From Sulfurimonas aquatica (GTDB lineage Bacteria > Campylobacterota > Campylobacteria > Campylobacterales > Sulfurimonadaceae): a stretch of DNA of 64,000 bases. Under the pieces are notes generated by a model. That model was not told the origin of the DNA and ran no database searches. It was given only the letters and a program-made list of their open reading frames with translations. Location of the stretch: contig NZ_CP046072.1 in assembly GCF_017357825.1 (NCBI RefSeq), positions 2,232,001-2,296,000 on the forward strand. The letters run 5' to 3'. Numbering within the stretch: the first letter of the stretch is position 1; the number at the start of each line of letters is the position of its first letter. Position numbers and translations under genes: made by a program. Of this stretch, positions 1-52,185 are shown piece after piece.

Positions 1-1
1 T

Positions 2-859
2 GGTGCTTGTGGTGGCAAGAGTAGTCTTCCAAATAATAGAGCACTCTGTATGATTGCAAACTCACAAGAAGTACGAGAGGCTATAGCAAAAAAAGGTATT
101 ATAATCCCTGAAGATGTGAGGTTTATACCATCTCTACACATTACTACTACAGATCAAATAGAGTTTCACGATACAGATATTTTAACACAAGCAGAGATGA
201 AAAGATTTTCTGTAGTTATGAAAGATTTTGAAAAAGCATCAGCTATTGCACGTTATGAAAGAGTGGCACAACTTCCATATACAAAAACTCAAAATGATAT
301 TATGATCAAATCTATGGATTGGTCAGAAACTAGACCAGAATGGGGATTAGCAGGTGTTATGGGTGTTTTTGCAGGTCCTAGAAAGTCTATCAAGCATATG
401 CCTTTTGGCAATAGACTTTTTATGCATTCGTATGATTCAAAACTAGATAATGAAGATGCTGACATACTTACACGTATTTTTGATGGTCCACTTGTAGTTG
501 GAGAGTGGATTAACCTAGAACACTATTTTGCTACCGTAGACAATGCCATATATGGAGCTGGATCTAAGGTATATCATAATGTTGTTTCAAAAGTTGGTGT
601 ATTTAATGGAAACTATAGTGATCTAAAAATTGGTTTGCCAACACAATCTGTACTTTTAGAAGGTCAAGCATACCATGAACCTGTAAGACTTCTTACTTAT
701 ATGGAAGCACCTTTAGAACTAGTAGGAAAAGCAGTAGAAAAATCAGTAGCTAAAGAGTTCATTCTTAATGAATGGATACGACCTATCATTGTTGATAAAG
801 CGGCTGGAAAAGTTTATTCATTTGAATCTGGTGACTTTAAGGTTATTAAAGAATTTTAA
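2..859 (+). CDS. dabA: DabA inorganic-carbon transporter subunit, C-terminal part (cut by window edge)
   Basis: The reading frame is open from base 2, so the gene begins upstream of the window. The visible part is the C-terminal third of a DUF2309/UPF0753 protein. The first residues read GACGGKSS, the Cys/Gly motif of the carbonic-anhydrase-like metal site of DabA, followed by the family pattern VREAIAKKGIIIPEDV and SLHITTTD. DabA pairs with the membrane protein DabB to take up CO2 or bicarbonate by energy-coupled hydration; DabB is not in the window. In an autotroph this would supply carbon to the oxidoreductases encoded further on. The inner ATG at base 50 is not the true start, because the conserved motif lies upstream of it in the same frame. 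Confidence 0.88.
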   Translation, partial: GACGGKSSLPNNRALCMIANSQEVREAIAKKGIIIPEDVRFIPSLHITTTDQIEFHDTDILTQAEMKRFSVVMKDFEKASAIARYERVAQLPYTKTQNDIMIKSMDWSETRPEWGLAGVMGVFAGPRKSIKHMPFGNRLFMHSYDSKLDNEDADILTRIFDGPLVVGEWINLEHYFATVDNAIYGAGSKVYHNVVSKVGVFNGNYSDLKIGLPTQSVLLEGQAYHEPVRLLTYMEAPLELVGKAVEKSVAKEFILNEWIRPIIVDKAAGKVYSFESGDFKVIKEF

Positions 860-4337: not shown

Positions 4338-4565
4338 TTAAACTTCTTTAGCTTCAGCCATTTCCATTGAAATACAATCACGGTTAAGAAGATCAGAACA
4401 AACGTATACACAAAGTGCACACCCTTTACATCTATCTTCATCAACCCATGAAGTATTATTTTCTTTATCGAACATAAGCGTATTAGCTTCTGGACAATAA
4501 AGTGTACACATATTACATTTGTGCTCAGCACACTTGTCTGAATCAACTTTTGCTACATAATACAT
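4338..4565 (-). CDS. 2x[4Fe-4S] ferredoxin (delta) subunit of 2-oxoacid:ferredoxin oxidoreductase, cluster 1
   Basis: This 75-residue protein has two cluster motifs: C12-x4-C17-x2-C20-x3-C24-P and C46-x2-C49-x2-C52-x3-C56. The first spacing, with four residues between the first two Cys, is unusual for bacterial ferredoxins. It would pass electrons between the beta-subunit cluster and external ferredoxin. It is the last gene of the E-A-B-G-D cluster, 13 bases after G. The copy at 13109-13336 differs at only two residues while the catalytic subunits of the two clusters have diverged strongly. The size fits the small D subunit of the five-subunit enzymes known from Hydrogenobacter. Confidence 0.9.
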   Translation of the reverse strand: MYYVAKVDSDKCAEHKCNMCTLYCPEANTLMFDKENNTSWVDEDRCKGCALCVYVCSDLLNRDCISMEMAEAKEV

Positions 4566-4578
4566 TCATAAATTCCTT

Positions 4579-5283
4579 TTATACGTCAATTTGGGTAATT
4601 AAATCACCAGATTCTAAATCTACTTTAGCAGCCATGTCAAATGTCCACTTGATAACATTCATGTTAGCTTCAAGTAATTGCTCTTTTTTCTTGAATTTCT
4701 TCTCAATTGCAGAATCCAGCATAGCTGTACCACCTGAAGAAACGAAAGAAGTTCCTAGGAATCTTTCTCTAACAGCAGCTTCGATATGCTCTGTAGTAAC
4801 AAGCTTAGTAAGACCAAGTAACATACCCATCATTGCCATATTTGTTGCAAGTTCAGTACCTGCAATTTTTTGTGCTAGTTTAGTAGCATCAAATTGAACA
4901 ACAGTAGCATTTAAGTCACGAAGTACTTGCTTATCTTCCTCTTCAAGAACATTAAACTCTGAGTTAATAATAATTAAACTATTTGGTTTAAGACCTGTAT
5001 AAAAAGGCATTGTATATGATTTACCATGAGTTACAACTTGTGAATGGTAAATCATAATAATATCAGGATAAACAACTTCCCCAACTTCATAAATTGGCTC
5101 TGAAGAAGCTCTTACATAAGCTTCAACAGGTGCCATTCTTTTTTCAGAACCGAAAAATGGAACCAAAGATGCATATTTACCTGCATTATCCATAGTTGAA
5201 CCAAGAATGTGTGCAGTAGTAACAACACCCTGGCCACCAAGACCAGAAATACGTATGTTATATCTTTTTTTATCTGTTGCCAT
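4579..5283 (-). CDS. 2-oxoacid:ferredoxin oxidoreductase gamma subunit, cluster 1
   Basis: The 234-residue protein starts with the gamma-subunit signature GLGGQGVVTTAHILG (residues 14-28) and contains SEKRMAPVEAYVR and ELATNMAMMGMLLG, all typical of this domain, which contributes to the CoA-binding side of the enzyme. It starts one base after the beta gene and is followed by the ferredoxin gene. About 40 C-terminal residues (KKFKKKEQLLEANM and beyond) make it longer than the 185-residue PorG encoded at 49031. The closest relative in the window is the gamma subunit at 9633-10349. The substrate (pyruvate or 2-oxoglutarate) cannot be read from the sequence. Confidence 0.9.
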   Translation of the reverse strand: MATDKKRYNIRISGLGGQGVVTTAHILGSTMDNAGKYASLVPFFGSEKRMAPVEAYVRASSEPIYEVGEVVYPDIIMIYHSQVVTHGKSYTMPFYTGLKPNSLIIINSEFNVLEEEDKQVLRDLNATVVQFDATKLAQKIAGTELATNMAMMGMLLGLTKLVTTEHIEAAVRERFLGTSFVSSGGTAMLDSAIEKKFKKKEQLLEANMNVIKWTFDMAAKVDLESGDLITQIDV

Positions 5284-5284
5284 A

Positions 5285-6190
5285 CTAGTTTGCCTCCGCT
5301 CTTGCAGCTTTTAATGCTTTCTTAGCTGCTTTTTCTTCGCCTTCTACACGCTCTATAACTTCTTTAGAAGCATCAGTCATATATTCGTAAAATGCGAAAC
5401 GACCTTTTTCTTTCTCTTTAGCATCTGCAAATACTTCTTCAGTAGGGATTGAATACTCAATATTACATGAAGTGTATGCATGGATAAATGTAGGACCAAC
5501 TTCACGAGCTACAAAAATAGCTCTTCTGATGATCTGCGCCGCTTTTTTGATATTTGTAGGAGACATTCTTACAACATATACACAACCAGCAGCAATTGCT
5601 AAGTCTGTAGCTGGCATTTTTTCGCCTTTCTTACCTAATGGAGCCATTTTAAGAACAGCACCCTTAGGAGACATACCTGACTCTTGTCCACCAGTGTTTC
5701 CATAAACTTCATTATCAAGCATGATTGTAGTGAATTTCTCACCACGAATCCATGAGTGCATAGTCATTGAGAAACCGATATCCATAGTACCACCGTCACC
5801 GGCAATAGTAATAACATCTTTTGTTTTATCTGGAAAACGTAATCTGAATGCACGAGTTAAACCAGAAGCCATTGCATTTTGGTCACCGTAGTTACCATAA
5901 ATAAATGGAACAGCAGCTTGAGAAATCGCTAGACGACCACAACCAGCTGTACCTAATGTTACTGTCTCTTCCGGACATGGAAGTGAAGCAAATATTAGTC
6001 TGATGTAATAAGCCATCCAACAACCAGAACACATTGGGTGCTCTTCAACTAACTCTTTGAATTGACCCATATTTTGAGGACCAGCTTCTTCTTGAGTCTT
6101 TCCAAATGGACCGTAATCAACTAATTCAACATAATCTTTTGGCAAATATCTTTTAAATACTTTTGCCGGAGTTACATATTTTAAACTCAT
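5285..6190 (-). CDS. 2-oxoacid:ferredoxin oxidoreductase beta subunit (TPP and Fe-S), cluster 1
   Basis: The 301-residue catalytic subunit binds thiamine pyrophosphate through GDG (131-133) and the downstream LDNEVYGNTGGQ motif. Four Cys would hold the [4Fe-4S] cluster: C54 and C57 in HPMCSGC, C84 in TAGC, and one in AYTSCNIE. It catalyses reversible oxidative decarboxylation of a 2-oxoacid, or CoA-dependent carboxylation when run backwards. The gene follows the alpha gene by 15 bases. Compared with cluster 2 it has an Ala/Lys/Glu-rich C-terminal tail (EKAAKKALKAARAEAN). Ribosome site AAGGGGAT is present. Confidence 0.93.
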   Translation of the reverse strand: MSLKYVTPAKVFKRYLPKDYVELVDYGPFGKTQEEAGPQNMGQFKELVEEHPMCSGCWMAYYIRLIFASLPCPEETVTLGTAGCGRLAISQAAVPFIYGNYGDQNAMASGLTRAFRLRFPDKTKDVITIAGDGGTMDIGFSMTMHSWIRGEKFTTIMLDNEVYGNTGGQESGMSPKGAVLKMAPLGKKGEKMPATDLAIAAGCVYVVRMSPTNIKKAAQIIRRAIFVAREVGPTFIHAYTSCNIEYSIPTEEVFADAKEKEKGRFAFYEYMTDASKEVIERVEGEEKAAKKALKAARAEAN

Positions 6191-6205
6191 TCTATCCCCT
6201 TTACT

Positions 6206-7396
6206 TTATAATTTAAGATCGTACTCTAAACCTAGAGCAGTATAAATTTCTTTCATGATAAGTTCAACAGGTAGTGTCATACCACCGTATACTCTTGGAC
6301 CTTCTACAACAATACCACCATTAGGAATTGCCGCTTTAACCTCTTTAGATAACCAACCAATAATATTGTGCTCAGGAACGATAAGTGTCTTAGCATTCTT
6401 AACCGCTGCATTGATTTCATCAATTGGGAATGGTCTAATTGCTCTAACTTTAATTAGACCAACGTTTAAGTTTTCTTCTTCAGCATATCTTTGTGCTTCT
6501 CTACCTTGAGCAGCAGCACAACCAGATGCGATAACAAATACGTCAGCATCAGGATTAACAACTTCAATTGGTCCACCTAGATATTGGTAGATATACTTCA
6601 TTGCGCGACGATTTGAATCCCAAATCTCTTGCTGCCATACTGAGTGAATCAGGTAAGACATAAAGTTTGACTTTTGAACCGGAGCATCTCTTTGAATTCT
6701 AGCTGGTGGAGTTTCATTATCCATAGCTGGAACTGGAGCTGCAACTGAATCAAAATCTTTGTATGCTAAGTCTTCAGACATCATGTCAACATAACCCTTA
6801 GCGTGAGTAACAAAGAAACCTTCTGTTGAAACAGATACAGGAATATAAACATCAACTTTTTCAGTAATAGCAAATGCTGCTAATGTCATGTCAAATGTAT
6901 CTTGCTGATTTTCAGCATGTAACATTACAGCACCACAATGCATTAAATATGCCATTTCTATATTATCAGGTTGAATTGATAATGGTGCGTTTACAACACG
7001 AGTAAGAACACCTAATACCGCTGGAACACGGTGACCTGGCCAAGAAGCAATAGCTTCAAGACCTCTTAAAAGCCCTGGTCCTGAAGTTGCAGTAAACAGA
7101 CGTACACCTGCTCTAGCTGCACCAGCGATTGCTGACATTGTACCAAGCTCTTCTTCAGCTCTATAGTACTCTTTAAGGTGACCTTGAGCATAAATATCAC
7201 CAACAAGGTGCATTACCTCAGATTGTGGTGTAATAGGATAAGCAATTGCCATATCAACATTTGCTCTTTTAACAGCTTCCGCCATTGCTTGAGCACCTGT
7301 GATAAAATGCTGCTCTCTTGGAGCCTCATGTAATAGGTAATCCATATCTACGAATGTTTTTGTCTTGTTTGGTTGTGGTCTTTCTATTGCGCTCAT
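6206..7396 (-). CDS. 2-oxoacid:ferredoxin oxidoreductase alpha subunit, cluster 1
   Basis: This 396-residue subunit has the pyrimidine-binding domain with YPITPQSE at 53-60, TATSGPGLLRGLEA, and a C-terminal transketolase-like domain with KVRAIRPFPIDEI. It joins the beta subunit to complete the TPP site. Its motif YPITPQSE matches the cluster 2 alpha subunit and differs from YPITPSTP in the PorA at 49996. It follows the E gene by 10 bases and the spacing suggests one mRNA. The N-terminal 20 residues before LLHEAPRE are an extension shared with cluster 2. Confidence 0.93.
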   Translation of the reverse strand: MSAIERPQPNKTKTFVDMDYLLHEAPREQHFITGAQAMAEAVKRANVDMAIAYPITPQSEVMHLVGDIYAQGHLKEYYRAEEELGTMSAIAGAARAGVRLFTATSGPGLLRGLEAIASWPGHRVPAVLGVLTRVVNAPLSIQPDNIEMAYLMHCGAVMLHAENQQDTFDMTLAAFAITEKVDVYIPVSVSTEGFFVTHAKGYVDMMSEDLAYKDFDSVAAPVPAMDNETPPARIQRDAPVQKSNFMSYLIHSVWQQEIWDSNRRAMKYIYQYLGGPIEVVNPDADVFVIASGCAAAQGREAQRYAEEENLNVGLIKVRAIRPFPIDEINAAVKNAKTLIVPEHNIIGWLSKEVKAAIPNGGIVVEGPRVYGGMTLPVELIMKEIYTALGLEYDLKL

Positions 7397-7406
7397 TTAT
7401 TCTCCT

Positions 7407-8120
7407 TTATTCGACATCAGTAACATGCTCACCTTTTTTTGTCATGATGAGACTTCTATACTCACCATAATCAGCAGGTGATAATGAACTATTGTCCTCT
7501 TTTTGTAAAGATGGATTTTCTGGTGGTAGAGTAGTTTCCCACTCAATGCCTAATTTATTTCTTTCTTCAATAACGATTTCTTTGAATCTAGTAATGTTTT
7601 CTGCATGTAAATCTCTGATTGACGCCATTGCTTCTTCATGTCCCATATAAGCACATAGAGCAATTGTATAACAATCAGTACCAGCACGAATCATTCTTAA
7701 TGAAAGATTTGCATAGTGACAGTGAACACCAACAAAGATACATGCTTTAATTTTATTATCTAAAATCGTTAAATTCGGGTGATTTGGATTAATTTCAGCC
7801 TTAACATCAATTTTTGGATATTTAGGTCTGTAATCTGGCATTGGAATAATTTTACAGTTTGGAATTTCAGATGCAAGCTCTAAAAGTGCTGCTGCTTTAG
7901 CTGCAACGTCTTCTTTCCAGTCCCATAACACTTGAGGACCAGGGAAGATAGTTGGGTTTTCTTTTGTAAGCATAGCTCTTGCTGCATCTCTCATTGCCTC
8001 TTCTTCTTCGACAATGTTTCCATAGAGAAGTGCTTTACCTGTTGGTGCTAGCTCAACTCCCATAGATGGTGCTGACTGTGGCATATACCCAGCAGGACCC
8101 TCTGTGATAATTTTTGACAT
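7407..8120 (-). CDS. Accessory E subunit resembling CO dehydrogenase/acetyl-CoA synthase epsilon, cluster 1
   Basis: The 237-residue product is not a standard oxidoreductase subunit. Its central part (IFPGPQVL, then NHPNLTI and ACIFVGVHCHYANLSLRMIR) resembles the CdhB/epsilon family of CO dehydrogenase-acetyl-CoA synthase, a nucleotide-binding-fold protein, and it matches the 189-residue protein at 12424 over most of its length. Five-subunit enzymes of Hydrogenobacter also have an E subunit of unclear role. This copy has about 45 extra C-terminal residues (from ETTLPPENPS), rich in Ser, Pro and Glu. It is the first gene of the cluster; its role as a structural, gating or regulatory subunit is inference. 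Confidence 0.75.
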   Translation of the reverse strand: MSKIITEGPAGYMPQSAPSMGVELAPTGKALLYGNIVEEEEAMRDAARAMLTKENPTIFPGPQVLWDWKEDVAAKAAALLELASEIPNCKIIPMPDYRPKYPKIDVKAEINPNHPNLTILDNKIKACIFVGVHCHYANLSLRMIRAGTDCYTIALCAYMGHEEAMASIRDLHAENITRFKEIVIEERNKLGIEWETTLPPENPSLQKEDNSSLSPADYGEYRSLIMTKKGEHVTDVE

Positions 8121-8557
8121 AGTTTTCTCCTTTATTTACGAAACGATTTTGTAAAATACACAAAAAATGCATAAAACATTTTTAAATTCTATACCTAATA
8201 ACAAATCTTAAAGATTAGATATAACGTCTTTCAGAATAGATGTACCACCTGATACATTCCATACATATGAAATACATGAATTTGGGAAATACTATCGTAT
8301 AAAATCTTTGAGATACATGAATTTAGTTAGAAGTAGTAATTTGTAACATATTGATAATAGTATTGGGCAAAATTGAAACATATTTTACTTATGTATATTA
8401 TTAAACAGAATGATTTTAATAGGATTAATGAAGAATTACATATTAAATTTATGGAGGTAACTAATAAGATTCTATTTTTACACACTATAGAGATTAAGAA
8501 GAGTATATATGGCTTACTAATCTTTAAATTGGCTATAAAGATTAGTATGTTAAATTT
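8121..8557. promoter_or_regulatory. 437-bp intergenic region upstream of cluster 1
   Basis: This stretch lies between the end of the GTPase gene and the first gene of cluster 1, both on the minus strand, so it should hold the cluster 1 promoter. It contains a 12-base direct repeat ATACATGAATTT at 8272-8283 and 8313-8324 (41 bases apart) and a hairpin with 10-bp arms, CTAATCTTTA (8517-8526) and TAAAGATTAG (8536-8545), just after the GTPase stop codon, probably its terminator. I see no convincing gene in it. Confidence 0.5.
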
Positions 8558-9529
8558 TTACTTTGCGAGTCTAAATTTAGGAAGGTTCATAAACTCGAAC
8601 TTTTCAGTTAATAATAGTACATCATCATCTATAGATTCCCCTATAAATATCAGAATCGACTTTTCACTATAACCTTCTAACTCATCGTATGATACATTAC
8701 CAAATGAATAATTGATAACTAGAGGATTGGGCACATCCAGTGTTCTCACAATACCTTTAACTCTATAAATACTTTTAGGAATATTTTGTAATACTTCATC
8801 AATATCGTTAAAATTGATATTTTCTTTAAGGTAAACAACTTTCTGAGTTATTGAGTCCTCAGTAGTATGATCAAGATGATTATAATCTTTTGCTAAACCA
8901 ATGATTTCTTCAGTTTTAAAAACCCCGTTAAAAATATCTTTTTTTACTACACCCTGTTGAGCATTATCAACAACATAATTAGTAAATATCATTTTGCCTG
9001 TAAGGTTATTTTTGATATTAAATTTTTCTTTAATTTCGATAACCTCTTTCCTTGCATGCTCTAACTCGAGCTCACTAACCAAGTCGGTCTTGTTTAAAAT
9101 AATAATATTTGAACCACCAATTTGATATTTTGCAGTTGAATTATCTTTGTAGGAATCTAAATTTTTGGCATCAACCACACAGATAACGCCCTCAACGGAA
9201 ATACCAAGATTTTGTAAAGATAAAAAGATAGGAAAGGGCTCTGATGCTCCCGAAGTCTCAACAAATATAATCTCTGGATTATATTTATTCATAATCTCAA
9301 TTACACCACTTTCAAACTCTTCTGCCAATTGACAGCAAATACAGCCTTCTGATATCTCCAATACTTCACTGTAAACATTGCTTAGGATATTTCCATCTAT
9401 TCCTATATCTCCAAACTCGTTTACGATAATAGCTACTTTTTTATCACTAAAATGCTCTTTAACTGTATTGGTCAACATAGTTGTTTTTCCAACACCTAGA
9501 AATCCAGTAATTACGAATGATTGTATCAT
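8558..9529 (-). CDS. CobW/COG0523-family G3E GTPase (putative metallochaperone)
   Basis: The 323-residue protein has the P-loop GFLGVGKT at 9-16, the family metal motif GCICC (C63, C65, C66), the switch region EIIFVETSGASEPFPI and the guanine motif NKTD. It ends with the CobW C-terminal domain, reduced to about 90 residues. Members insert or deliver Zn, Co, Ni or Fe to client enzymes using GTP. It lies alone between the two 2-oxoacid oxidoreductase clusters on the same strand, about 100 bases after cluster 2, so a role in maturing those Fe-S/TPP enzymes or in metal supply is suggested by position only. No Zur-type operator was recognised. Confidence 0.88.
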   Translation of the reverse strand: MIQSFVITGFLGVGKTTMLTNTVKEHFSDKKVAIIVNEFGDIGIDGNILSNVYSEVLEISEGCICCQLAEEFESGVIEIMNKYNPEIIFVETSGASEPFPIFLSLQNLGISVEGVICVVDAKNLDSYKDNSTAKYQIGGSNIIILNKTDLVSELELEHARKEVIEIKEKFNIKNNLTGKMIFTNYVVDNAQQGVVKKDIFNGVFKTEEIIGLAKDYNHLDHTTEDSITQKVVYLKENINFNDIDEVLQNIPKSIYRVKGIVRTLDVPNPLVINYSFGNVSYDELEGYSEKSILIFIGESIDDDVLLLTEKFEFMNLPKFRLAK

Positions 9530-9605
9530 GAGGGAACCTTAAAATAATATTTGATTGAATTAGTATTTGTAAATGCGAAATGCATCTTGTGTAGATAGAG
9601 AGTAA

Positions 9606-9626
9606 AACCGTGCCAAAGACACGGTT
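9606..9626 (-). terminator. Terminator after oxidoreductase cluster 2
   Basis: Arms AACCGTG (9606-9612) and CACGGTT (9620-9626) form a 7-bp GC-containing stem seven bases after the stop codon of the gamma gene. Read on the minus strand the stem is followed by TTACTCTCT. It would separate cluster 2 from the GTPase gene. Confidence 0.6.
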
Positions 9627-9632
9627 AAAAGA

Positions 9633-10349
9633 TTACTTGTTACCGTTGTTGTTTTTAGAAGGTTCAAGAATTGGCTCAAGTCCAACTTCTTTAGCCCATG
9701 CAGCTGTTAAATCATAAGCAGCTGATGCAGTATCAAGATTCTTTTGAATTAGTTCTTGTTTCTTCTTAAACTTTTTCTCAATAACTGAGTCAAGTGTAGC
9801 AGTACCACCAGATGCAGTATATTTCTTAAGGAATCTATCTTTAATTCCCTCTTCAATTGCAGCTTTAGAAACTGTACCAAGAGCACCAAACAGTGCACCT
9901 AACATAGCCATGTTAGTTGCAAGTTCAGTACCAGCTTGATCGATAGCAAACTGAGTAAAGTCTTTAGTAAGAACCTTAACATTTAAGTCAGATAAAACTT
10001 TCTTATCGTGTTCAGTTAAAAGCTCTACTTCAGAGTTAATGATAACTAAACCATTCTCTTTAATACCAGCGTAAAAAGGCATAGTGTATGATTTACCCAT
10101 AGTAATAACTTGTGGGTGGAAAATCATAACAATATCAGGATAAATTACTTCCCCTCTATCGTAAATAGGCACTGTACCTATTCTTGCATAAGACTCTGAT
10201 GGAGCCATACGTTTTTCAGCACCAAAGAATGGATTTGAAACAGCATAGTAACCATCAGTATCAGCAGCAGTTGCAGCAATGTGAGCTGCAGTAACTGCAC
10301 CTTGACCACCAAGACCCGGAAGTCTTACTTTAATTGAATCTTTTGCCAT
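9633..10349 (-). CDS. 2-oxoacid:ferredoxin oxidoreductase gamma subunit, cluster 2
   Basis: The 238-residue subunit has GLGGQGAVTAAHIAA at 12-26, AEKRMAPSESYAR and ELATNMAMLGALFG, the gamma-domain hallmarks. It also has the long C-terminal tail seen in cluster 1 (KKFKKKQELIQKNL). Its start codon overlaps the stop codon of the beta gene by one base (TAATG), pointing to translational coupling. It is the last gene of cluster 2 and is followed by a terminator. It is clearly paralogous to 4579-5283. Confidence 0.9.
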   Translation of the reverse strand: MAKDSIKVRLPGLGGQGAVTAAHIAATAADTDGYYAVSNPFFGAEKRMAPSESYARIGTVPIYDRGEVIYPDIVMIFHPQVITMGKSYTMPFYAGIKENGLVIINSEVELLTEHDKKVLSDLNVKVLTKDFTQFAIDQAGTELATNMAMLGALFGALGTVSKAAIEEGIKDRFLKKYTASGGTATLDSVIEKKFKKKQELIQKNLDTASAAYDLTAAWAKEVGLEPILEPSKNNNGNK

Positions 10350-11218
10350 TATAAACGTCCTTCTTCTTTACATTTTGCTAAAAACTCTTCAGCTTCTGGT
10401 GAAATATATTTGTAAGACTCAAATCTATCTTTGTCTTGCTCTTTCATTTCTCCAAGTCCTTCATTAGCACTTAGTCCAATTTCAAGAATACATGGTGTAT
10501 AGATGTTAAGGAAAGTTGGTCCGATTTCTCTTGCAACTAATATCGCTTCTCTAACTGCTTTAGCAACTGCTTTAGGAGCAGAAGCTGTCATGTTTATAGA
10601 ATAGTGACATCCTGATGTAGTAGCTAGCTTCCACATTGGCACTTTATCGAACTTTTTACCAGTTGGAGCCATTTTAAATACTTGACCTTTTGGTGTAGCA
10701 CCTGATTCTTGTCCACCAGTATTTGCGTAAACTTCATTATCGAAACAGATTGTTGTAATGTTTTCTTGTCTAAAGAAAGATTGAAGTGTATAGTCAAGAC
10801 CGATATCAACAGTAGCACCGTCTCCCGCTAAAACAACAACATCTTTTTCAGTATCTGGAAATCTCCAGTCAAGAACTCTTTTGATACCAGTTGCAACAGC
10901 ATTTTGGTTACCAAATAGTGAGTGCACAGTATGTAGTGCAATATGTGGGAACATTAATGAAGTACAACCAGTTGAGTTAACAATGATAGTCTCTTCAGGT
11001 TTAGGAAGTGCAGAAAGTACATATCTCAATGCAGCAGCTTCTGGACAACCAGCACATAAAGAGTGCTCTTCTAATAACTCTTTTGATTGTGGAAGTTCTT
11101 TAATACCACGAGGCTTGTCTTGATTTTGAGCCCATGTAGCTTTTTCCTCAAGATCAATAATCTCTTGAGGCATAATGTCTCTAAATTCTGGATTGATTTT
11201 ATAGATATCTATTGCCAT
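10349..11218 (-). CDS. 2-oxoacid:ferredoxin oxidoreductase beta subunit (TPP and Fe-S), cluster 2
   Basis: The 289-residue subunit carries GDG at 132-134 and FDNEVYANTGGQ for TPP-Mg binding. Four Cys would hold the [4Fe-4S] cluster: C55 and C58 in LCAGC, C85 in STGC, and one in YTPCILE. It lacks the Ala/Lys tail of its cluster 1 paralogue. It follows the alpha gene by a single base. The window gives no direct clue to whether pyruvate or 2-oxoglutarate is the substrate; the diverged active-site surroundings (NSTGCTSLMFPH here, LGTAGCGRLAIS in cluster 1) suggest the two clusters do not have the same one. Confidence 0.93.
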   Translation of the reverse strand: MAIDIYKINPEFRDIMPQEIIDLEEKATWAQNQDKPRGIKELPQSKELLEEHSLCAGCPEAAALRYVLSALPKPEETIIVNSTGCTSLMFPHIALHTVHSLFGNQNAVATGIKRVLDWRFPDTEKDVVVLAGDGATVDIGLDYTLQSFFRQENITTICFDNEVYANTGGQESGATPKGQVFKMAPTGKKFDKVPMWKLATTSGCHYSINMTASAPKAVAKAVREAILVAREIGPTFLNIYTPCILEIGLSANEGLGEMKEQDKDRFESYKYISPEAEEFLAKCKEEGRL

Positions 11219-11219
11219 A

Positions 11220-12422
11220 CTATGCTCCTTTACCTGGATTGATTTTTTCCATAACTTCTTTAATAATTGCTTCAGCAGGCATACTCATACCACCAGCAAC
11301 TCTAGGTCCGCCAACGATGTCCGCTTCAGTTTTTTTGTAAAGTGCTTTTTTCACTTCTTTTTCTAACCAACCAACAACATTAAACTCAGGTACAAATATA
11401 TGTTTTACACCTTCTAGTGCTGTAATAAGTTCTTCTTCTGGGAATGGTCTAATAGTTCTTAACTTAATAACTTTAGATTTGATTCCAAGTTTCATTAGTT
11501 CTCTTTCAGCCTCTTTAGCTTGATGAGAAGCAGTACCACAAGTAACAAATGCGATTTCAGCGTCTTCACTACCTGTTGTATGAACTAGACCATCTAGGAA
11601 GTGCTCAGCATATGGACGTGAACGTTCAACTGCAGATCTAATTTCAAACTGCCAAGAAGCATGTGTTGCATAAGAGATATAGTTAGACTTCATTACGAAT
11701 GGATCTCTTAAGAAACGTCCCGGAGGTGTTTCTGAATCAATCGGAGGTAATGGAGACTTATATGGCTCATATGGGAAGAGTGCGATATCATCAGCAGGAA
11801 GCATTACTGCCTCTCTAGTGTGAGATACAAAGAATCCATCAACTACAGTAATAATAGGCACATGAACATCAGGCTTTTCAGCTACAACGAATGCTGCAAT
11901 TGACATGTCAAAAAGTTCTTGAACATTTTCAGCATACCAAATCTGGCATCCAGTCTCTAGCATATAAGAAACTTCCAAGTTATCTGGTTGAATAGTAAGT
12001 GGTGAGTTAATACCACGAGCCATTAGAATCAGTTGACATGGAATTCTAGTTCCTGACCACTGAGCAAAGTTTTCCATTGCTCTTAGTGTACCTGGACCTG
12101 AAGTAGTTGTAATTGTTCTAGCACCTGCCATTGCACAACCTGCAACTTCAGACATAACACCAAACTCATTCTCTCCACGGAAGTATGTACCTACATAACC
12201 CTCTGCCCATAGTTCACCGATAAGGTGAGCTGCTTCAGATTGTGGTGTAATTGGGTACGATACTGATGCATCAACTGTACATCTTTTTACCGCTTCTTTT
12301 AAAACTTCAGAACCTGTCATGAAGTGTTTTTCTCTTGGTGCTTCAAATAATAATTCGTCCGCTGTAACTAGTCTTTGTCCAGACCAGTTATGCGTATCTG
12401 TCATATCAGTAATTTTACTCAT
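11220..12422 (-). CDS. 2-oxoacid:ferredoxin oxidoreductase alpha subunit, cluster 2
   Basis: The 400-residue alpha subunit shows YPITPQSE at 56-63, TTTSGPGTLRAMEN, and the C-terminal KLRTIRPFPEEEL. It shares the N-terminal LLFEAPREKHFMTG segment with cluster 1. It starts one base after the E gene and one base separates it from beta, so these subunits are tightly coupled. It pairs with the beta subunit for the TPP site and with gamma for CoA. Confidence 0.93.
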   Translation of the reverse strand: MSKITDMTDTHNWSGQRLVTADELLFEAPREKHFMTGSEVLKEAVKRCTVDASVSYPITPQSEAAHLIGELWAEGYVGTYFRGENEFGVMSEVAGCAMAGARTITTTSGPGTLRAMENFAQWSGTRIPCQLILMARGINSPLTIQPDNLEVSYMLETGCQIWYAENVQELFDMSIAAFVVAEKPDVHVPIITVVDGFFVSHTREAVMLPADDIALFPYEPYKSPLPPIDSETPPGRFLRDPFVMKSNYISYATHASWQFEIRSAVERSRPYAEHFLDGLVHTTGSEDAEIAFVTCGTASHQAKEAERELMKLGIKSKVIKLRTIRPFPEEELITALEGVKHIFVPEFNVVGWLEKEVKKALYKKTEADIVGGPRVAGGMSMPAEAIIKEVMEKINPGKGA

Positions 12423-12423
12423 A

Positions 12424-12993
12424 TTATAATCCTAGTTCTTTTTTTACTTCTCTAGCTATTTTATTGAATTTTTCAAGTTCTGATGAATGCTGGTCTCTTA
12501 ATGTAGCCATAGCATCTTCGTGTCCTGATAAACCACAAATAGCAACTGTATAACAATCTGTCTCTGATCTAACCATTTTTAATGCAACATTTGCATAGTG
12601 ACAGTGAACACCGATAAATATCGCTGCTTTAATATTGTTATGCCAAATTGTTAAGTTTGGGTGATTTGGATTGATCTCAACTTCTGCATCAATTTTTGGA
12701 TACTTTGGTCTGTAATCATACATTGGAATCATGTTAGCGTTAAGAATTTCTGACATCTCTTTTATAAGAGTAGCTTTCTTTTTAGCTTCTTCGTTAAATC
12801 CGTATAGTACTTGTGGACCAGGGAAAATTGTTGCATTCTCTTTAGTCAACATAACTTTTGCAATTTCTCTCATTGCAATTTCTTCATCTACTATCTCTTC
12901 TAGTAAAAGTGCTTTTCCTTCTGGTGGTGTAATTACACCTTCATACGTAGCCGCAGGATACGGTGAATAATACGCGGGACCTTGGTTTGCCAT
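12424..12993 (-). CDS. Accessory E subunit resembling CO dehydrogenase/acetyl-CoA synthase epsilon, cluster 2
   Basis: The 189-residue protein aligns with the first 190 residues of 7407-8120: GKALLLEEIVDEEIAMREIA, MLTKENATIFPGPQVL, MYDYRPKYPKIDAEVEINPN, and AAIFIGVHCHYANVALKMVR. The last motif resembles the CdhB/epsilon family of CO dehydrogenase-acetyl-CoA synthase. No catalytic Cys set or nucleotide motif is obvious. It is translated right before alpha (one base apart) and lies 115 bases after the ferredoxin gene. The shorter length here suggests that the C-terminal tail of the cluster 1 copy is dispensable. Confidence 0.75.
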   Translation of the reverse strand: MANQGPAYYSPYPAATYEGVITPPEGKALLLEEIVDEEIAMREIAKVMLTKENATIFPGPQVLYGFNEEAKKKATLIKEMSEILNANMIPMYDYRPKYPKIDAEVEINPNHPNLTIWHNNIKAAIFIGVHCHYANVALKMVRSETDCYTVAICGLSGHEDAMATLRDQHSSELEKFNKIAREVKKELGL

Positions 12994-13075
12994 AAGTTCT
13001 CCTATGATTTTTTTTAACTGTATTTTGAATTAAGTCTAAATTCTATACTTGTTTTTTTTAGTTTGAGCCATTTTT

Positions 13076-13092
13076 ATCGAGATTTACTCTCG
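13076..13092 (-). promoter_or_regulatory. Hairpin between ferredoxin and E genes of cluster 2
   Basis: A perfect 6-bp stem TCGAGA/TCTCGA (13076-13081 and 13087-13092) with a five-base loop lies 17 bases after the ferredoxin stop codon, inside the 115-bp gap before the E gene. On the minus strand it is followed by A-rich sequence, not U, so it is less likely a terminator than an mRNA-processing or stabilising element that lets ferredoxin be made in excess. Confidence 0.4.
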
Positions 13093-13108
13093 ACAATAGA
13101 ATGGGAGC

Positions 13109-13336
13109 TTAAACTTCTTTTGCTTCAGCCATTTCCATCGAAATACAATCTCGATTAAGTAGGTCAGAACATACGTACACACACAGTGCACACCCTTTAC
13201 ATCTATCTTCATCGACCCAAGATGTATTTCCAACTTTATCGAACATTAGCGTATTAGCTTCTGGACAATATAGTGTACACATATTACATTTATGCTCAGC
13301 ACACTTGTCTGAATCAACTTTTGCTACATAATACAT
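13109..13336 (-). CDS. 2x[4Fe-4S] ferredoxin (delta) subunit of 2-oxoacid:ferredoxin oxidoreductase, cluster 2
   Basis: The 75-residue ferredoxin has the same eight cluster Cys as 4338-4565 (C12, C17, C20, C24 and C46, C49, C52, C56) and differs only where VG replaces EN near residue 35. At DNA level the two genes differ at many silent sites, so the protein is held by selection rather than by very recent copying. It is the first gene of cluster 2, the reverse of its place in cluster 1, so the two ferredoxin genes stand at the outer ends of the whole array. Confidence 0.9.
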   Translation of the reverse strand: MYYVAKVDSDKCAEHKCNMCTLYCPEANTLMFDKVGNTSWVDEDRCKGCALCVYVCSDLLNRDCISMEMAEAKEV

Positions 13337-13659
13337 TTATTTACTCCTCATAATAACTTAAACATTGTTATTAAACCTGACAATAATATTTAACTGTCAA
13401 GTCCAATAATTCGCGATGTAGCCTCAAAAAAACTATAAATAAATCTATTAGTCAGCTACATTTTATGTTTTATAAAAAGAATTCTACTCAAAAAACCTTT
13501 GACTTTTCTTTAAGAATATATAAACTTAATTGATACGAATGATAAATTAACATAATTTTATATTCATTAAATATTAACAAAAATGGGCTTTTATATATTT
13601 AATAAATTTTTATTCTAAATTATATCTCTTTCTTAACTTAAATAAAAAAACAACTCTAA
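13337..13659. promoter_or_regulatory. AT-rich gap between cluster 2 and repeat copy 2
   Basis: This gap between divergent genes is very AT-rich, with many T and A runs, and must hold the promoter of the minus-strand cluster 2. I see no gene, tRNA or clear operator in it. The plus-strand promoter for the next gene lies just beyond it, inside the repeat. Confidence 0.4.
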
Positions 13660-14170
13660 AAAGCACTGAGTGAAACTAAAGTTCTGAGTGCTATAATTTC
13701 AAAATAATATTAAAAGGAAAGAATATGTATACAATTGAGATTGATGATCCTTGTAGTTGTTTTAAGAAAAGTGGTATGGATCAGACTATGACTTTTGAGA
13801 ATAGAGAAGATGCACACATGAGAGCTAAGGTATTAGAGTGTCGCATGAATCAAGAGTTTTGTCTTACACATTACTTTACTGCAGTAGATCTTGGTGAAAA
13901 AATTCTTATTACTAAAATAGTACGTCCAGTAGATGAAGATGAAGACTATGACTATGAAGATGTAAAAAAGCTTATAGCAAACAGTAATGTAAAAATAGGT
14001 TTTGATGATGCTGAAGAGACTCCAAATGGTGACAAACGCGGAAAAACTAGTACTCATAGTTAAGCTACTTGAATTAGAACAAAAAAACTCTCTTTAACTT
14101 GCTTTGAAGAGAGTCTCCTCTTTAACAAAAACAACTCCCTTAAACTACTTAAAGTCTAAATAAACTTTTA
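13660..14170 (+). repeat. 511-bp direct repeat, copy 2
   Basis: This is the second copy of 892-1402, in the same orientation, ending within a shared run of TTTTA. The copies diverge abruptly on both sides. It carries the promoter palindrome (13662-13692), TATAAT (13692-13697), the gene for the small Cys protein and the hairpin. Confidence 0.95.
13725..14063 (+). CDS. Small Cys-containing protein of unknown function, copy 2
   Basis: The 112-residue product is identical to that of 957-1295, with C10-x-C12, C39, C46-x2-H49 and an acidic C-terminal half. The two genes differ only at silent positions, indicating recent duplication or gene conversion. It is followed after 190 bases by a diverged family member, so three related genes lie in the window, two of them side by side here. 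No function is known to me. Confidence 0.85.
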   Translation: MYTIEIDDPCSCFKKSGMDQTMTFENREDAHMRAKVLECRMNQEFCLTHYFTAVDLGEKILITKIVRPVDEDEDYDYEDVKKLIANSNVKIGFDDAEETPNGDKRGKTSTHS

Positions 14171-14218
14171 TAAAAATAAAGTACTTTTAAATCCTATCTT
14201 TGTTTTGGCTTTAATCAC

Positions 14219-47235: not shown

Positions 47236-47296
47236 TATTAAGAACTTGCACACTATACTGTCGAAATTAAAAAATCTTAGAAGGATAAATTTACTG

Positions 47297-48982
47297 ATGT
47301 TCCAATTATTTAAAGATTCACTCGAACCTAAACTGATAACTTTATGGCGGCTTCAAGGATATTCAAAATCAGATTTTTATGCAGATTTAGTCGCCGGACT
47401 TGTGGTTGCTATCGTGGCACTTCCACTTGCTATGGCTATTGCTATAGCATCTAACCTCCCACCGGAAAGAGGTCTATTTACGGCAATTGTTGCCGGTTTT
47501 ATTATATCTGCACATGGAGGTAGCCGTTATCAAATAGGAGGGCCAACAGCTGCATTTGTAGTAACAGTGTCAATGGTTGCTATGGAACATGGATATGAAG
47601 GTTTAGTCCTCGCTACTATGATGGCTGGGATTATATTGATGATTATGTCATTTGTTCATGCAGGAGAGTTAATCAAGTTTATTCCTTATCCTGTTGTTAT
47701 TGGATTTACTTCAGGAATTGCACTTCTCATTGCCTTTTCTCAAGTACGAGACTTTTTTGGTCTTAAAGTAGAGAGTGTACCACCAGACTTTATCCATAAG
47801 TTTATGCTTTATATTTCTCATTTAGACGATATGAACATTTATGCAGTTATCGTCTCTCTTGTCTCAGTTGGCATCATCCTCTTTTTTAAACGCTATATTC
47901 CAAAGGTTCCTGGACCAATTGTAGTAGTTGTTTTTGCAGGAGTTGCAGTCTGGATGTTTAATCTACCTATTGAAACCATAGAGAGTCGGTTTGGTCCTAT
48001 TCCATCTATGCTTCCCTCACCTACATGGCCAGATATATCCTTTGAAAAATTACGTCAATTAATGCCTGATGCAATTACGATTGCAATCCTTGCTGCAATT
48101 GAATCACTTCTCTCAGCTGTAGTTGCAGATGGCATGACAGGAACTCATCACAAATCAAATGCTGAGTTGTTTGGGCAAGGCATAGCAAATATTGCTTCTG
48201 GTTTTTTTGGAGGGCTTCCAGCTACGGGTGCGATTGCAAGAACTGCTACAAACATTAAAGCAGGTGCACGCACACCTGTGGCAGGGATTATGCATGCTTT
48301 TTGGCTTTTTGTATTTATGTTGTTTCTAACGCCATTAATTATAAAAATTCCCCTTGCTGCGTTAGCTGCTATCTTGATAGTTGTAGCATGGAATATGTCT
48401 GAAGTTAAGCATATTAAAGAGATTATGAAAGCACCAAGAAGCGACCGTATTATTTTAATCGTTACATTTATCTTAACCATACTAGTCGATCTAAATTTTG
48501 CTATTCAAACAGGTATTGCATTAGCTTCAATCCTCTTTATCGACTCTATGATGAAAACAACGAAAATTCGTATATTTGAGAATGAAGAAGATCCAGACTC
48601 AATCGATCGTAAAACTCTTCCTCAAGATGTCGAAGTGTATGAAATTCAGGGTCCGCTATTTTTTGGTATTGCTGAAAAGCTTATAGATGTCCTAAATCTG
48701 TTTGAGCATCCTCCTATAGTCTTTATATTAAGAATGAGATATGTTCCATATATCGATGCAGCAGGACTTCATGCACTTGAAATTTTACATGAACGTCTTA
48801 CAAAACAGCAGACAGTTCTCATACTTTCTGGTGTAGGTCCAGAAGTTCAGTCTCACATTGTAAAAGCATCATTAAACAGACTTATCGGAAATGAAAATAT
48901 TGTTGATCATATCAGCAAGGCATTAACAAGAGCCTCTCAAATTACAGATAAAACTCAAACATATAATAAAGGAGGTGTTTAA
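47297..48982 (+). CDS. SulP/SLC26-family anion transporter with STAS domain
   Basis: I start at ATG 47297 (561 residues), preceded by AGAAGGA; an in-frame TTG at 47246 has no ribosome site. The protein has about 10-14 membrane helices with DLVAGLVVAIVALPLAMAIAIAS, the family motif GGSRYQIGGPTAAFVV and ESLLSAVVADGMTGTHHKSN, and a C-terminal STAS domain at about 440-550 (VEVYEIQGPLFFGIA, YIDAAGLHALE). SulP proteins carry sulfate, bicarbonate or other anions. It lies 48 bases before porGDAB and has a TetR gene in front; bicarbonate supply for pyruvate synthesis is an attractive but unproven idea. Confidence 0.9.
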   Translation: MFQLFKDSLEPKLITLWRLQGYSKSDFYADLVAGLVVAIVALPLAMAIAIASNLPPERGLFTAIVAGFIISAHGGSRYQIGGPTAAFVVTVSMVAMEHGYEGLVLATMMAGIILMIMSFVHAGELIKFIPYPVVIGFTSGIALLIAFSQVRDFFGLKVESVPPDFIHKFMLYISHLDDMNIYAVIVSLVSVGIILFFKRYIPKVPGPIVVVVFAGVAVWMFNLPIETIESRFGPIPSMLPSPTWPDISFEKLRQLMPDAITIAILAAIESLLSAVVADGMTGTHHKSNAELFGQGIANIASGFFGGLPATGAIARTATNIKAGARTPVAGIMHAFWLFVFMLFLTPLIIKIPLAALAAILIVVAWNMSEVKHIKEIMKAPRSDRIILIVTFILTILVDLNFAIQTGIALASILFIDSMMKTTKIRIFENEEDPDSIDRKTLPQDVEVYEIQGPLFFGIAEKLIDVLNLFEHPPIVFILRMRYVPYIDAAGLHALEILHERLTKQQTVLILSGVGPEVQSHIVKASLNRLIGNENIVDHISKALTRASQITDKTQTYNKGGV

Positions 48983-49030: not shown

Positions 49031-49588
49031 ATGCTTGAAATTAGATGGCACAGTCGTGCTGGTCAAGGTGCAGTTACAGGGGCTAAAGGTTTAGCAGATG
49101 TTGTAGCATCTACAGGAAAAGATGTGCAGGCGTTTGCATTTTATGGTTCTGCAAAACGCGGAGCTGCCATGATGGCGTTTAACCGTTTTGATGACAAGGT
49201 GATCTTAAATCATGAGAAGTTCATGCAACCAGATTATATACTTGTTATTGACCCTGCATTGGTCTACTCAATAGATATTACTGAAAATGAGAAAGAGAAT
49301 ACTGTGTACATTATTACTACACATTTAACTACTGAGGAGCTGATTGTATCTCAGCCAAAGCTTGCAGGGAAAAAAGTTTTCACGGTTGATTGTATTAAAA
49401 TCTCTCAAGAAACAATTGGAAAAGCGATACCAAACACACCTATGCTAGGTGCGTTTATGAAAGTCTCAAAAATGTATGAAATTGACTTCTTTCAAAAGAG
49501 CATGTTGAAGGTTCTTAATAAACTTCCTCAAAAAATAATTGATGCCAATATGATAGCTATAGAACGTGCATACAATGAAGTTAAATAA
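49031..49588 (+). CDS. porG: Pyruvate:ferredoxin oxidoreductase gamma subunit
   Basis: The 185-residue subunit begins IRWHSRAGQGAVTGAKGLAD and has FAFYGSAKRGAAMMAFNRFDD, with the length and order of Helicobacter PorG (about 186). It lies at the head of porG-D-A-B. It lacks the longer tail of the gamma subunits of clusters 1 and 2. AGGAGAG gives a strong ribosome site. Confidence 0.92.
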   Translation: MLEIRWHSRAGQGAVTGAKGLADVVASTGKDVQAFAFYGSAKRGAAMMAFNRFDDKVILNHEKFMQPDYILVIDPALVYSIDITENEKENTVYIITTHLTTEELIVSQPKLAGKKVFTVDCIKISQETIGKAIPNTPMLGAFMKVSKMYEIDFFQKSMLKVLNKLPQKIIDANMIAIERAYNEVK

Positions 49589-49597
49589 GGAGATAAA

Positions 49598-49996
49598 ATG
49601 CTAGAAAATGGATGGGATACTTTTGAAATAGGTACGATACTCAGACCTTTTGAAGGAGCAGTAACAGATATTGTAAATACACTACCAGAGCATAGAAACT
49701 ACTCAAAATCAAACTCGTTTAGTATAAGTGTAGCCGATTGGCGTATTGAAAAGCCATTGCTCAATTTAGAGGAGTGTATACATTGTCAATTCTGCTGGAT
49801 TTATTGTCCTGATATGTCAATAATTTCTCGTGAGAAAAAAATGGTTACTATAGATTTTGATCACTGTAAAGGGTGTGGAATTTGTGTTGAAGTTTGTCCA
49901 ACAAATGCGCTTTTAATGTTTCCTGAACAAATGGATGAAGCAGAGGCATTATCGAACTGGCCCCAAGAAGAGAATACAAAAGTAAAGGAAAACTAA
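49598..49996 (+). CDS. porD: Pyruvate:ferredoxin oxidoreductase delta subunit (2x[4Fe-4S])
   Basis: The 132-residue subunit has an N-terminal segment with GWDTFEIGTILRPFEGAV and VADWRIEKP. Two cluster motifs follow, CIHCQFCWIYCP and CKGCGICVEVCP. It is larger than the 75-residue D subunits of clusters 1 and 2. Its stop codon overlaps the porA start codon. Confidence 0.93.
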   Translation: MLENGWDTFEIGTILRPFEGAVTDIVNTLPEHRNYSKSNSFSISVADWRIEKPLLNLEECIHCQFCWIYCPDMSIISREKKMVTIDFDHCKGCGICVEVCPTNALLMFPEQMDEAEALSNWPQEENTKVKEN

Positions 49997-51216: not shown

Positions 51217-51225
51217 GGATTATAT

Positions 51226-52185
51226 ATGACTCAAATAAAAGCAAAAACAAAAAATCTCAAAAATTTTTCAACATCTACAGAACGTTTTGAGGGTTCAAAC
51301 CTTCTCTGCCCTGGATGTGCTCACTCTATTATAGTTCGTGAAGTCTTAAACGCGACGGACGATAATCTGATTCTCGCGGCTTCAACTGGATGTCTTGAAG
51401 TTTGTACAGCTGTTTATCCGCACACTTCATGGGATGCTTCTTGGATTCATATAGGGTTTGAGAATGGTTCTTCTGCAGTAGCAGGTGCTGAAGCTATGCA
51501 CAAAGCACTTAAAAAGAAAGGTCGTCTCAAGCAACCAGAACGCACACCTAAATTTGTGGCGTTTGGTGGTGATGGGGCAACATATGACATCGGTTTTCAG
51601 TGGATTTCTGGATGTTTTGAACGCGGACACGATATGATGTATGTCTGTTTAGACAACGAAGTTTATGCAAATACTGGAGGACAACGCTCCTCTTCAACTC
51701 CAATCGGTGCATCGGCGACTACATCTCCTGCTGGACGCACGAGCTATGGTGAAAAACGAAACAAAAAAGACATCATGGCAATTATGGCAGCACATGGTGC
51801 ACCCTATGTGGCACAAGTGGCTCCAAACAAATGGAAAGATATGGTTAAAAAAATTCAAACAGGTTTTGCAACTGAGGGTCCAGTATTTATAAACGCCATG
51901 TCCGCATGTACAACAGAATGGAAATTTGCACCTGAAGATACTATTGCCATCTCTGACTTAGCTACAGAATCTTTAGTTTTTCCACTTTATGAGATAATTG
52001 ATGGTACTGAGCTAAACATCACATACCGTCCAAAAAATGTTATTCCTGTTCGTGATTATTTAGGTGCACAAGGGCGTTTTAAACATCTTTTTAGCAAACA
52101 GTACGAATATCTCATAGATGAGTGGCAAAGCCGTGTTGATGCAAAATGGGAATATTTACAACGTCGTGAAGAGGCTCGCGTTTAA
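51226..52185 (+). CDS. porB: Pyruvate:ferredoxin oxidoreductase beta subunit
   Basis: The 319-residue subunit has LLCPGCAHSIIVREV (two cluster Cys), STGCLEVC, GDGATYDIG and LDNEVYANTGGQRSSSTPIG for TPP, and SACTTEWKF with a further Cys. It closes the porGDAB operon. Size and motifs match the Helicobacter enzyme, which uses pyruvate and reduces flavodoxin; in this autotroph it may run towards pyruvate. Confidence 0.94.
   Translation: MTQIKAKTKNLKNFSTSTERFEGSNLLCPGCAHSIIVREVLNATDDNLILAASTGCLEVCTAVYPHTSWDASWIHIGFENGSSAVAGAEAMHKALKKKGRLKQPERTPKFVAFGGDGATYDIGFQWISGCFERGHDMMYVCLDNEVYANTGGQRSSSTPIGASATTSPAGRTSYGEKRNKKDIMAIMAAHGAPYVAQVAPNKWKDMVKKIQTGFATEGPVFINAMSACTTEWKFAPEDTIAISDLATESLVFPLYEIIDGTELNITYRPKNVIPVRDYLGAQGRFKHLFSKQYEYLIDEWQSRVDAKWEYLQRREEARV

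Follow-up and report, generated by a model that had tools for sequence, protein, structure and literature searches.

Two five-subunit 2-oxoacid:ferredoxin oxidoreductases go by the names ForDABGE and PorEDABG in Hydrogenobacter thermophilus. Oxygen tolerance of the five-subunit type in that organism is cited in PMC10066037 and PMC8115632. In Aquifex aeolicus, activity-stained gel bands combined with mass spectrometry assigned the gene cluster with a 27.6-kDa delta subunit and its ferredoxin gene last to 2-oxoglutarate:ferredoxin oxidoreductase (OGOR or OOR), and the cluster with a 21.3-kDa delta and its ferredoxin gene first to pyruvate:ferredoxin oxidoreductase (PFOR or POR) (PMC10052474). 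A five-subunit OOR/POR pair has been described as an oxygen adaptation in “Candidatus Sulfurimonas pluma”, with Sulfurovum AR and Aquificales in the synteny figure (PMC10066037); almost all Sulfurimonas strains compared elsewhere had four-subunit forms only (PMC12403661). Here we analyze two such clusters lying side by side in Sulfurimonas aquatica, in a stretch of 64,000 nucleotides (C1:2232001-2296000 of genome G000, 2.85 Mb in two contigs; hereafter the window). Cluster A occupies positions 4338-8120 (left) and cluster B positions 9633-13336 (right), both on the minus strand. With a probability of about 0.85, A encodes the 2-oxoglutarate and B the pyruvate enzyme, a reductive tricarboxylic acid (TCA) cycle pair acquired from Aquificota along with a CobW-type GTPase and a DAB inorganic-carbon pump. 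The substrates, subunit roles and oxygen tolerance proposed for A and B are drawn by analogy from Aquifex and Hydrogenobacter and should be read as predictions.

Gene content of the two clusters

The initial annotation, made from the letters alone, had described two full, diverged five-subunit sets on one strand, and this description holds: all ten genes are open frames, and the two alpha subunits are 43% identical. Transcription runs through the B genes in the order ferredoxin, delta, alpha, beta, gamma (13336 to 9633), then through a CobW/G3E GTPase gene (9529 to 8558), and then through the A genes in the order delta, alpha, beta, gamma, ferredoxin (8120 to 4338). The ferredoxin gene is thus last in A and first in B.

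Cluster A comprises a 237-residue delta subunit (7407-8120) that carries the PF02552 CO_dh domain, like the epsilon subunit of carbon monoxide dehydrogenase/acetyl-CoA synthase (CODH/ACS), and is of the long type seen in Aquifex OGOR; an alpha subunit (6206-7396) with POR_N and PFOR_II domains; a beta subunit (5285-6190) with TPP_enzyme_C; an OGOR-type gamma subunit (4579-5283) with the POR domain PF01558; and a 75-residue ferredoxin-like subunit (4338-4565) whose two sets of four cysteines fit a 2[4Fe-4S] protein. Cluster B comprises a ferredoxin-like subunit (13109-13336), again with two sets of four cysteines, a 189-residue delta subunit (12424-12993; PF02552), an alpha subunit (11220-12422), a beta subunit (10349-11218) and a POR-type gamma subunit (9633-10349), the last three with Pfam domain matches. 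The eight larger proteins score well above the Pfam cut-offs for POR, TPP_enzyme_C, POR_N or CO_dh, and both ferredoxins are judged from their cysteine pattern only. The beta subunits have a GDG motif and cysteines that fit one [4Fe-4S] cluster. Genes for alpha, beta, gamma, ferredoxin and a CO_dh-like delta thus stand together in both A and B, as the five-subunit class requires. The GTPase between them (8558-9529, minus strand; PF02492 and CobW_C), a recurrent member of this neighborhood, falls below the equivalog cut-offs for CobW (110.6 of 332.1 bits) and ZigA (74.6 of 600); the general G3E domain is all that it matches at family level.

Predicted assignment of substrates

Ferredoxin-last with a long delta in A, and ferredoxin-first with a short delta in B, match the OGOR and PFOR layouts of Aquifex in table 2 of PMC10052474. 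A tree of alpha subunits (68 rows, from a quick IQ-TREE search with SH-aLRT supports only and very long outgroup branches) gives the same division. Alpha A falls with the OGOR-type alphas of Aquificota (clade support 94) and alpha B with the POR-type (83), and each clade has members from Aquificota and from Nitrospirota/Nitrospinota. Within them, each window alpha belongs to a 16-row set that includes Hydrogenothermaceae-like rows (SH-aLRT 100 for A and 99 for B), and a position nested among Aquificota has good support for A (96, 96) and weaker support for B (85, 89). Genome G209, probably that of H. thermophilus TK-6, has one cluster in the A clade and one in the B clade (L136, L137).

No NCBIfam equivalog model exceeds its cut-off for the alphas, betas or gammas of A and B, and both gammas exceed that of TIGR02175, a broad pyruvate/2-ketoisovalerate subfamily model. 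The initial annotation proposed alpha and beta trees with characterized Hydrogenobacter, Helicobacter and Aquifex enzymes as a check. The grouping that it took as fatal, of both clusters with enzymes of some other 2-oxoacid specificity or with non-autotrophic ones, did not appear in the alpha tree; branched-chain and aromatic enzymes are absent from the tree and were compared through NCBIfam only. Its first proposal, that A and B are separate 2-oxoglutarate and pyruvate enzymes, is supported by the Aquifex-like gene order and subunit sizes and the alpha tree, and also by two features of the genome described below, a missing OorA and the presence of ATP citrate lyase.

Native four-subunit enzymes

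Five proteins in the S. aquatica genome have a POR_N domain: the alphas of A and B, that of a further copy of B (see below), the alpha of a four-subunit Por, and NifJ. The four-subunit Por genes (gamma, delta, alpha, beta) are retained in the window (49031-52185, plus strand), and the NifJ gene lies about 52 kb beyond the window end. A gene for a SulP-family transporter with a STAS domain (47246-48982) stands directly upstream of the four-subunit Por genes; a SulP gene likewise lies beside a dabA fragment in another genome of the genus (G139, L160). OorA, the alpha subunit of the four-subunit 2-oxoglutarate enzyme, was not found in the S. aquatica genome: the best stretch against the OorA equivalog NF007206 scores 60.4 bits, against a cut-off of 579, and belongs to the four-subunit Por alpha. 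The alphas of A and B score 59.7 and 65.3 bits against the same model, which places neither cluster with OorDABC.

The same tendency is seen across the genus sample of 135 genomes, G000 included, 20 of which carry the five-subunit delta. A placement of the organism in Sulfurovum was rejected, its FtsH being 84-88% identical to those of 12 other genomes in this genus and 63-65% to those of four titled Sulfurovum. OorA-size alphas occur in 4 of these 20 (G010, G031, G073, G118) versus 23 of 29 genus genomes without the delta (Fisher p 9e-5, shared ancestry ignored), the latter figure counting only OorA matches over the cut-off and scoring a partial match in G014 as absent. Kor-like alphas are found in three further five-subunit genomes (G028, G095, G113), and 13 of the 20, several of them drafts and S. 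aquatica among them, have neither an OorA-size nor a Kor-like alpha. Four-subunit Por alphas occur in 5 of the 20 versus, among the matches listed, 25 of the 29 without delta (p 2e-5, shared ancestry again ignored); the 25 were read by eye and include three fragments. Draft genomes cause false absences in both groups. A protein with the citrate-binding domain of ATP citrate lyase (PF16114) is encoded in S. aquatica, in 15 of the 20 five-subunit genomes and in 17 of the 22 genomes searched. With a four-subunit Por and NifJ both present, these two, and not A, would be the more likely isoenzyme partners of B and its copy.

Linkage to a DAB inorganic-carbon pump

The clusters lie next to an inorganic-carbon island that begins upstream of the window and consists of genes for a P-II protein, the bicarbonate transporter SbtA, DabB, a split part of DabB, and DabA (L006 13036-17998 together with window positions 1-859). 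The window holds the 3' end of dabA (1-859, plus strand), which encodes a protein of 957 residues (PF10070, 662 bits). A 246-residue protein resembles the second half of a split DabB, which in one piece is 753-790 residues long in L134, L136 and L140. The whole DabA has the motifs C-x-D-x-R and H-x14-C, as do 31 of 31 DabA proteins longer than 900 residues, and these motifs fit the zinc ligands named for DAB2 (PMC13144422). A DabA-family protein with zinc-site motifs and a DabB partner, the latter recognized by PF00361, identifies the pump as a member of the DAB family.

In the genus the association between pump and enzymes is close. DabA is found in 22 of the 135 genomes, and all 20 genomes with the delta subunit are among these 22 (Fisher p 6e-22, shared ancestry ignored). 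The two DabA genomes without delta carry a DabA of different appearance, a 1088-residue frame in G086 and two pieces in G139 that are 39% and 30% identical to the window DabA. Dab genes share a stretch with For/Por genes in 18 of the 20, and are on separate contigs from them in G061 and G072; in 17 genomes the nearest pair measured is separated by 1.5-6.7 kb between gene mid-points. From DabA to alpha A in S. aquatica the distance is about 7.4 kb.

The association extends to Aquificota. Among 121 genomes drawn, DabA occurs in 47, and 47 of 47 have a delta of the 190- or 240-residue type among the rows listed (frames of about 340 residues or more, most of them about 740, and short fragments were excluded). 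A forty-eighth genome matched, with a 42-bit DabA piece containing a stop (G163), and was dropped. DabA and delta lie within 12 kb of each other in 25 of the 47; of the other 22, four have both on one contig more than 200 kb apart and the rest have them on different contigs. In the dropped genome, Hydrogenobacter sp. KUB_Bin01, the remnant-like dabA match (G163:C28:6085-6348, L048) lies 4.8 kb from an OGOR-type delta, and it looks as if the pump was lost there. Four Hydrogenothermaceae-like loci (L124-L127) have the order A, CobW, DAB, B within about 14.5 kb, and a Hydrogenothermus contig (L099) has delta (in two frames), alpha, beta, gamma, ferredoxin and CobW, with DabA, a split DabB part and DabB on the other strand. 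Two Sulfurovum contigs contain A, B, CobW and DAB (L045, where A is cut at the contig end, and L046), and DabA occurs in five of another eight genomes whose loci are of the Nitrospira or Nitrospina type (one of these genomes is titled Nitrosospira).

Copying and exchange within the neighborhood

Cluster B is present twice. A 3919-bp unit (9595-13513, minus strand) recurs outside the window at C1:2216964-2220882 with 99.9% identity, all five proteins being identical. This five-gene set, copy C, lies 24.6 kb upstream of B and differs from it at four positions, three of them within the last 13 bp. It sits between cysK and a gene for a 216-residue protein that is followed by one for biotin carboxylase. 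Because B beside CobW is the arrangement common to relatives, the upstream copy is taken to be the new one. Its sequence extends 177 bp 5' of the ferredoxin gene, so that it may form a full additional unit of transcription. Three delta genes were seen in none of the remaining 19 five-subunit genomes. Inspection by eye of 40-50 bases past each edge did not reveal a cause of the copying.

A second repeat brackets both clusters. Direct copies of a 514-bp element lie at 892-1405 and 13660-14173, both on the plus strand, with seven mismatches (98.6% identity) and the same 112-residue open reading frame (957-1295 and 13725-14063). This layout would allow excision or amplification of the interval by recombination. 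After the right copy lies a frame of 90 residues with a cysteine-rich tail; homologues of the 112- and 90-residue products adjoin dabA in relatives. Neither of these, nor the neighboring proteins of 246, 216, 217 and 132 residues, has a Pfam match.

The ferredoxin genes of A and B are 90-91% identical in nucleotide sequence in the window, and 89-98% identical in seven of the eight genomes first compared (75% in the eighth, G035). Across 18 genomes of the genus, the A and B ferredoxins do not split into two clades, and a topology forced to unite the B ferredoxins is rejected (p-AU 7e-40). In relatives a B ferredoxin may be missing. The 700 bases preceding the B delta show no ferredoxin motif in five Hydrogenothermaceae-like loci (L124-L128) or in L143, and in Sulfurovum (L045, L046) the sole motif in that interval is the A ferredoxin. 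From the mixed tree together with the missing B ferredoxin in relatives, the most likely reading is that the B ferredoxin of the genus derives from the A ferredoxin by copying and has often been overwritten, by gene conversion or renewed duplication. Overwriting is not universal: the B ferredoxins of six genomes (G009, G028, G082, G113, G147, G153) do group together.

The DabA proteins split into two deep lineages in conflict with the For/Por tree. By alpha, G028 joins G009, G082, G147 and G153; by DabA it does not join them (p-AU 8e-74), and L042 and L043 have the same order of these genes despite the conflict in DabA. The DAB slot is retained while the DabA allele in it is swapped.

Fold and conservation of the delta subunit

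Both deltas are clear members of the CO_dh family (PF02552, E 5.7e-45 and 4.6e-49). A profile search with the delta gave no solved relative by sequence (one chance match, E 0.69), and likeness to known structures is by fold only. A predicted model of the B delta from 15 sequences (pLDDT 77.4) has a CODH/ACS-epsilon-like fold. Its best Foldseek matches are CODH chains (E 4.8e-5, rmsd 7.7), and VIA-align gives 1ytl a Z of 11.9 (rmsd 2.9, 127 aligned), Sir2 11.6 and formylmethanofuran dehydrogenase 13.3. The middle domain of thiamine enzymes scores nearly as high against the model as CODH/ACS epsilon does. The predicted fold therefore agrees with CODH/ACS epsilon but is widely shared and would not decide the relationship.

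In both deltas (12424-12993 and 7407-8120) a stretch reading DYRPKYPKI...EINPNHPNLTI is strikingly conserved and accompanied by invariant cysteines and histidines. In the 15 sequences, 20 of the 24 positions from D93 to I116 are invariant, as are H130, C131, H132, C147, C153 and H158, part of the invariant loop being modeled at low confidence. The delta has been described as having no known prosthetic-group motif and as required for heterologous expression (PMC3578206); the invariant residues could conceivably form a metal or cofactor site. Separate from the five-subunit delta, PF02552 also matches frames of about 740 residues in many Aquificota.

Transcription signals

The longest terminator-like hairpin of the stretch (4303-4277, minus strand, 12 pairs) lies 3' of the last gene of A, as a consensus match only; such hairpins are weak evidence, with six found versus 3.9 expected by shuffling. 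A promoter scan gave 34 matches, fewer than the shuffled mean of 37.7, and was not used.

Discussion

Our preferred interpretation is that the locus is a CO2-fixation cassette, gained horizontally and moving together with a CO2 pump. Gene content, gene order, the trees, the co-occurrence and the duplication are the observed ground for the following scheme. The A enzyme would convert succinyl-CoA and CO2 to 2-oxoglutarate, and the B enzyme acetyl-CoA and CO2 to pyruvate, both as ferredoxin-dependent steps of the reductive TCA cycle. Alpha and beta would make up the active site, with its thiamine diphosphate and one [4Fe-4S] cluster, the two-cluster ferredoxin subunit would deliver electrons, and the CODH/ACS-epsilon-like delta may be a structural or assembly subunit. 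The gamma subunit has a CoA-domain role in this family. The enzyme pair would have been acquired horizontally from Hydrogenothermaceae-like Aquificota, together with the CobW GTPase and the DAB pump, and would largely have displaced the native four-subunit enzymes (in S. aquatica with Oor gone and the four-subunit Por kept), probably because the pair tolerates oxygen. Most recently, the pyruvate operon would have been copied once more in S. aquatica, raising its dose.

Several considerations weigh against this scheme. The substrates predicted for campylobacterotal enzymes follow from orthology and gene order, and our literature search found no biochemistry for any campylobacterotal five-subunit enzyme. 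The alpha tree is a quick one, with SH-aLRT values only and long outgroup branches; its basal supports are 94 and 83, and those for the nesting of B are 85 and 89. The genome also encodes the four-subunit Por and NifJ, so B may be one pyruvate enzyme among several, and in G028, G095 and G113 the Kor-like alpha could supply 2-oxoglutarate. Twenty of 67 five-subunit Aquificota genomes, among the rows listed, lack an intact DabA (G163 included). Finally, these oxidoreductases take CO2, not bicarbonate. DAB yields bicarbonate (PMC13144422), which leaves no obvious direct route of supply, and pump and enzymes would have to be bridged by a carbonic anhydrase or by a carboxylase that uses bicarbonate. 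The biotin carboxylase gene beside copy C is a candidate for such an intermediate.

Other explanations account for parts of these data. In one, already raised in the initial annotation, A and B would catalyze a single 2-oxoacid reaction as isoenzymes expressed under different conditions, such as low and high oxygen. They are paralogous, at 43% identity, and H. thermophilus does change between two Oor forms with oxygen (PMC10066037), but A and B fall in two clades, each present in Aquificota, that match the separately assayed OGOR and PFOR of Aquifex. Further, in the 13 genomes with neither an OorA-size nor a Kor-like alpha, one of the clusters would have to supply 2-oxoglutarate. We give isoenzymes of this sort only a very slim chance. 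That both enzymes run mainly in the oxidative direction, consuming 2-oxoglutarate and pyruvate rather than fixing CO2, is hardly more probable. Enzymes of this superfamily are reversible, and the persistence of NifJ and the four-subunit Por as further members of the family would sit well with oxidative roles; the ATP citrate lyase protein and the adjoining inorganic-carbon uptake genes (SbtA, P-II, DabA, DabB) point instead to autotrophy.

A separate doubt attaches to copy C, which might be a duplicate created in assembly, with no real second pyruvate operon. S. aquatica is alone among the 20 genomes in having three delta genes, B and C differ by one base outside the edge, and the genome has an estimated contamination of 4.22%. 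Yet copy C lies 2.217 Mb into a 2.76-Mb contig, and both its flanks are unlike those of B, which makes an artifact improbable, if less so than the two preceding alternatives.

With the acquired pair of carboxylases preferred on these grounds, we infer that the DAB pump serves the five-subunit enzymes. Taken further, OGOR, POR, the CobW-type GTPase and DAB might form a transferable, coupled CO2-concentrating cassette for the reductive TCA cycle, not for Rubisco, whose parts persist through exchange of the DAB genes and whose ferredoxins are copied into one another. We put this stronger proposal forward tentatively, and on present evidence would expect it, by a little, to prove wrong rather than right. 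If it is true, the cassette would let autotrophs using the reductive TCA cycle fix carbon in oxygenated, CO2-poor water. That cycle is usually regarded as a low-oxygen pathway; portable, oxygen-tolerant carboxylases together with a CO2 pump would help to explain the entry of some Campylobacterota into oxic sea water, and such a gene set would extend CO2-concentrating mechanisms beyond Rubisco.

Comparison with known systems

The five-subunit enzymes are of a known kind and not new in Campylobacterota. The four-subunit OorDABC and PorGDAB of most members of the phylum catalyze the same reactions and belong to the same superfamily, but have no CO_dh delta subunit. With G209, probably H. thermophilus, the window shares the layout of two clusters; there the OGOR-type cluster is followed by CobW, DabB, DabA and a P-II-like gene (L136, L137). 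Unlike the case of the H. thermophilus enzymes, the two clusters of the window are neighbors, with ferredoxin genes that share 90-91% nucleotide identity. By analogy with characterized relatives, the A and B enzymes are probably oxygen-tolerant.

The nearest relatives in print are the campylobacterotal five-subunit pairs of “Candidatus Sulfurimonas pluma” and Sulfurovum sp. AR, which likewise have Aquificales-like trees and operons and are expected to tolerate oxygen (PMC10066037). S. aquatica differs from them in its second, near-identical POR operon, in keeping the four-subunit Por and NifJ, and in the DAB/CobW neighborhood; the main text of PMC10066037 gives no match for “dab” or “bicarbonate”. 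The OGOR (aq_1166-1171) and PFOR (aq_1192a-1200) of Aquifex resemble A and B in their five subunits, delta sizes and ferredoxin positions (PMC10052474). The Aquifex PFOR has an extra Uma2 gene, whereas B has a ferredoxin that tracks that of A. DabAB is abundant in Aquifex membranes (PMC10052474), but its genes (aq_863, aq_866), judged by locus tag, do not stand beside those of the oxidoreductases, unlike in the window. In the open-licence literature, subscription papers, preprints and supplements lying outside the search, we found no paper linking DAB genes to five-subunit oxidoreductases. To the extent of that search, three findings are new relative to print: the recent third copy, the overwritten ferredoxins, and a close association with DAB seen in two phyla.

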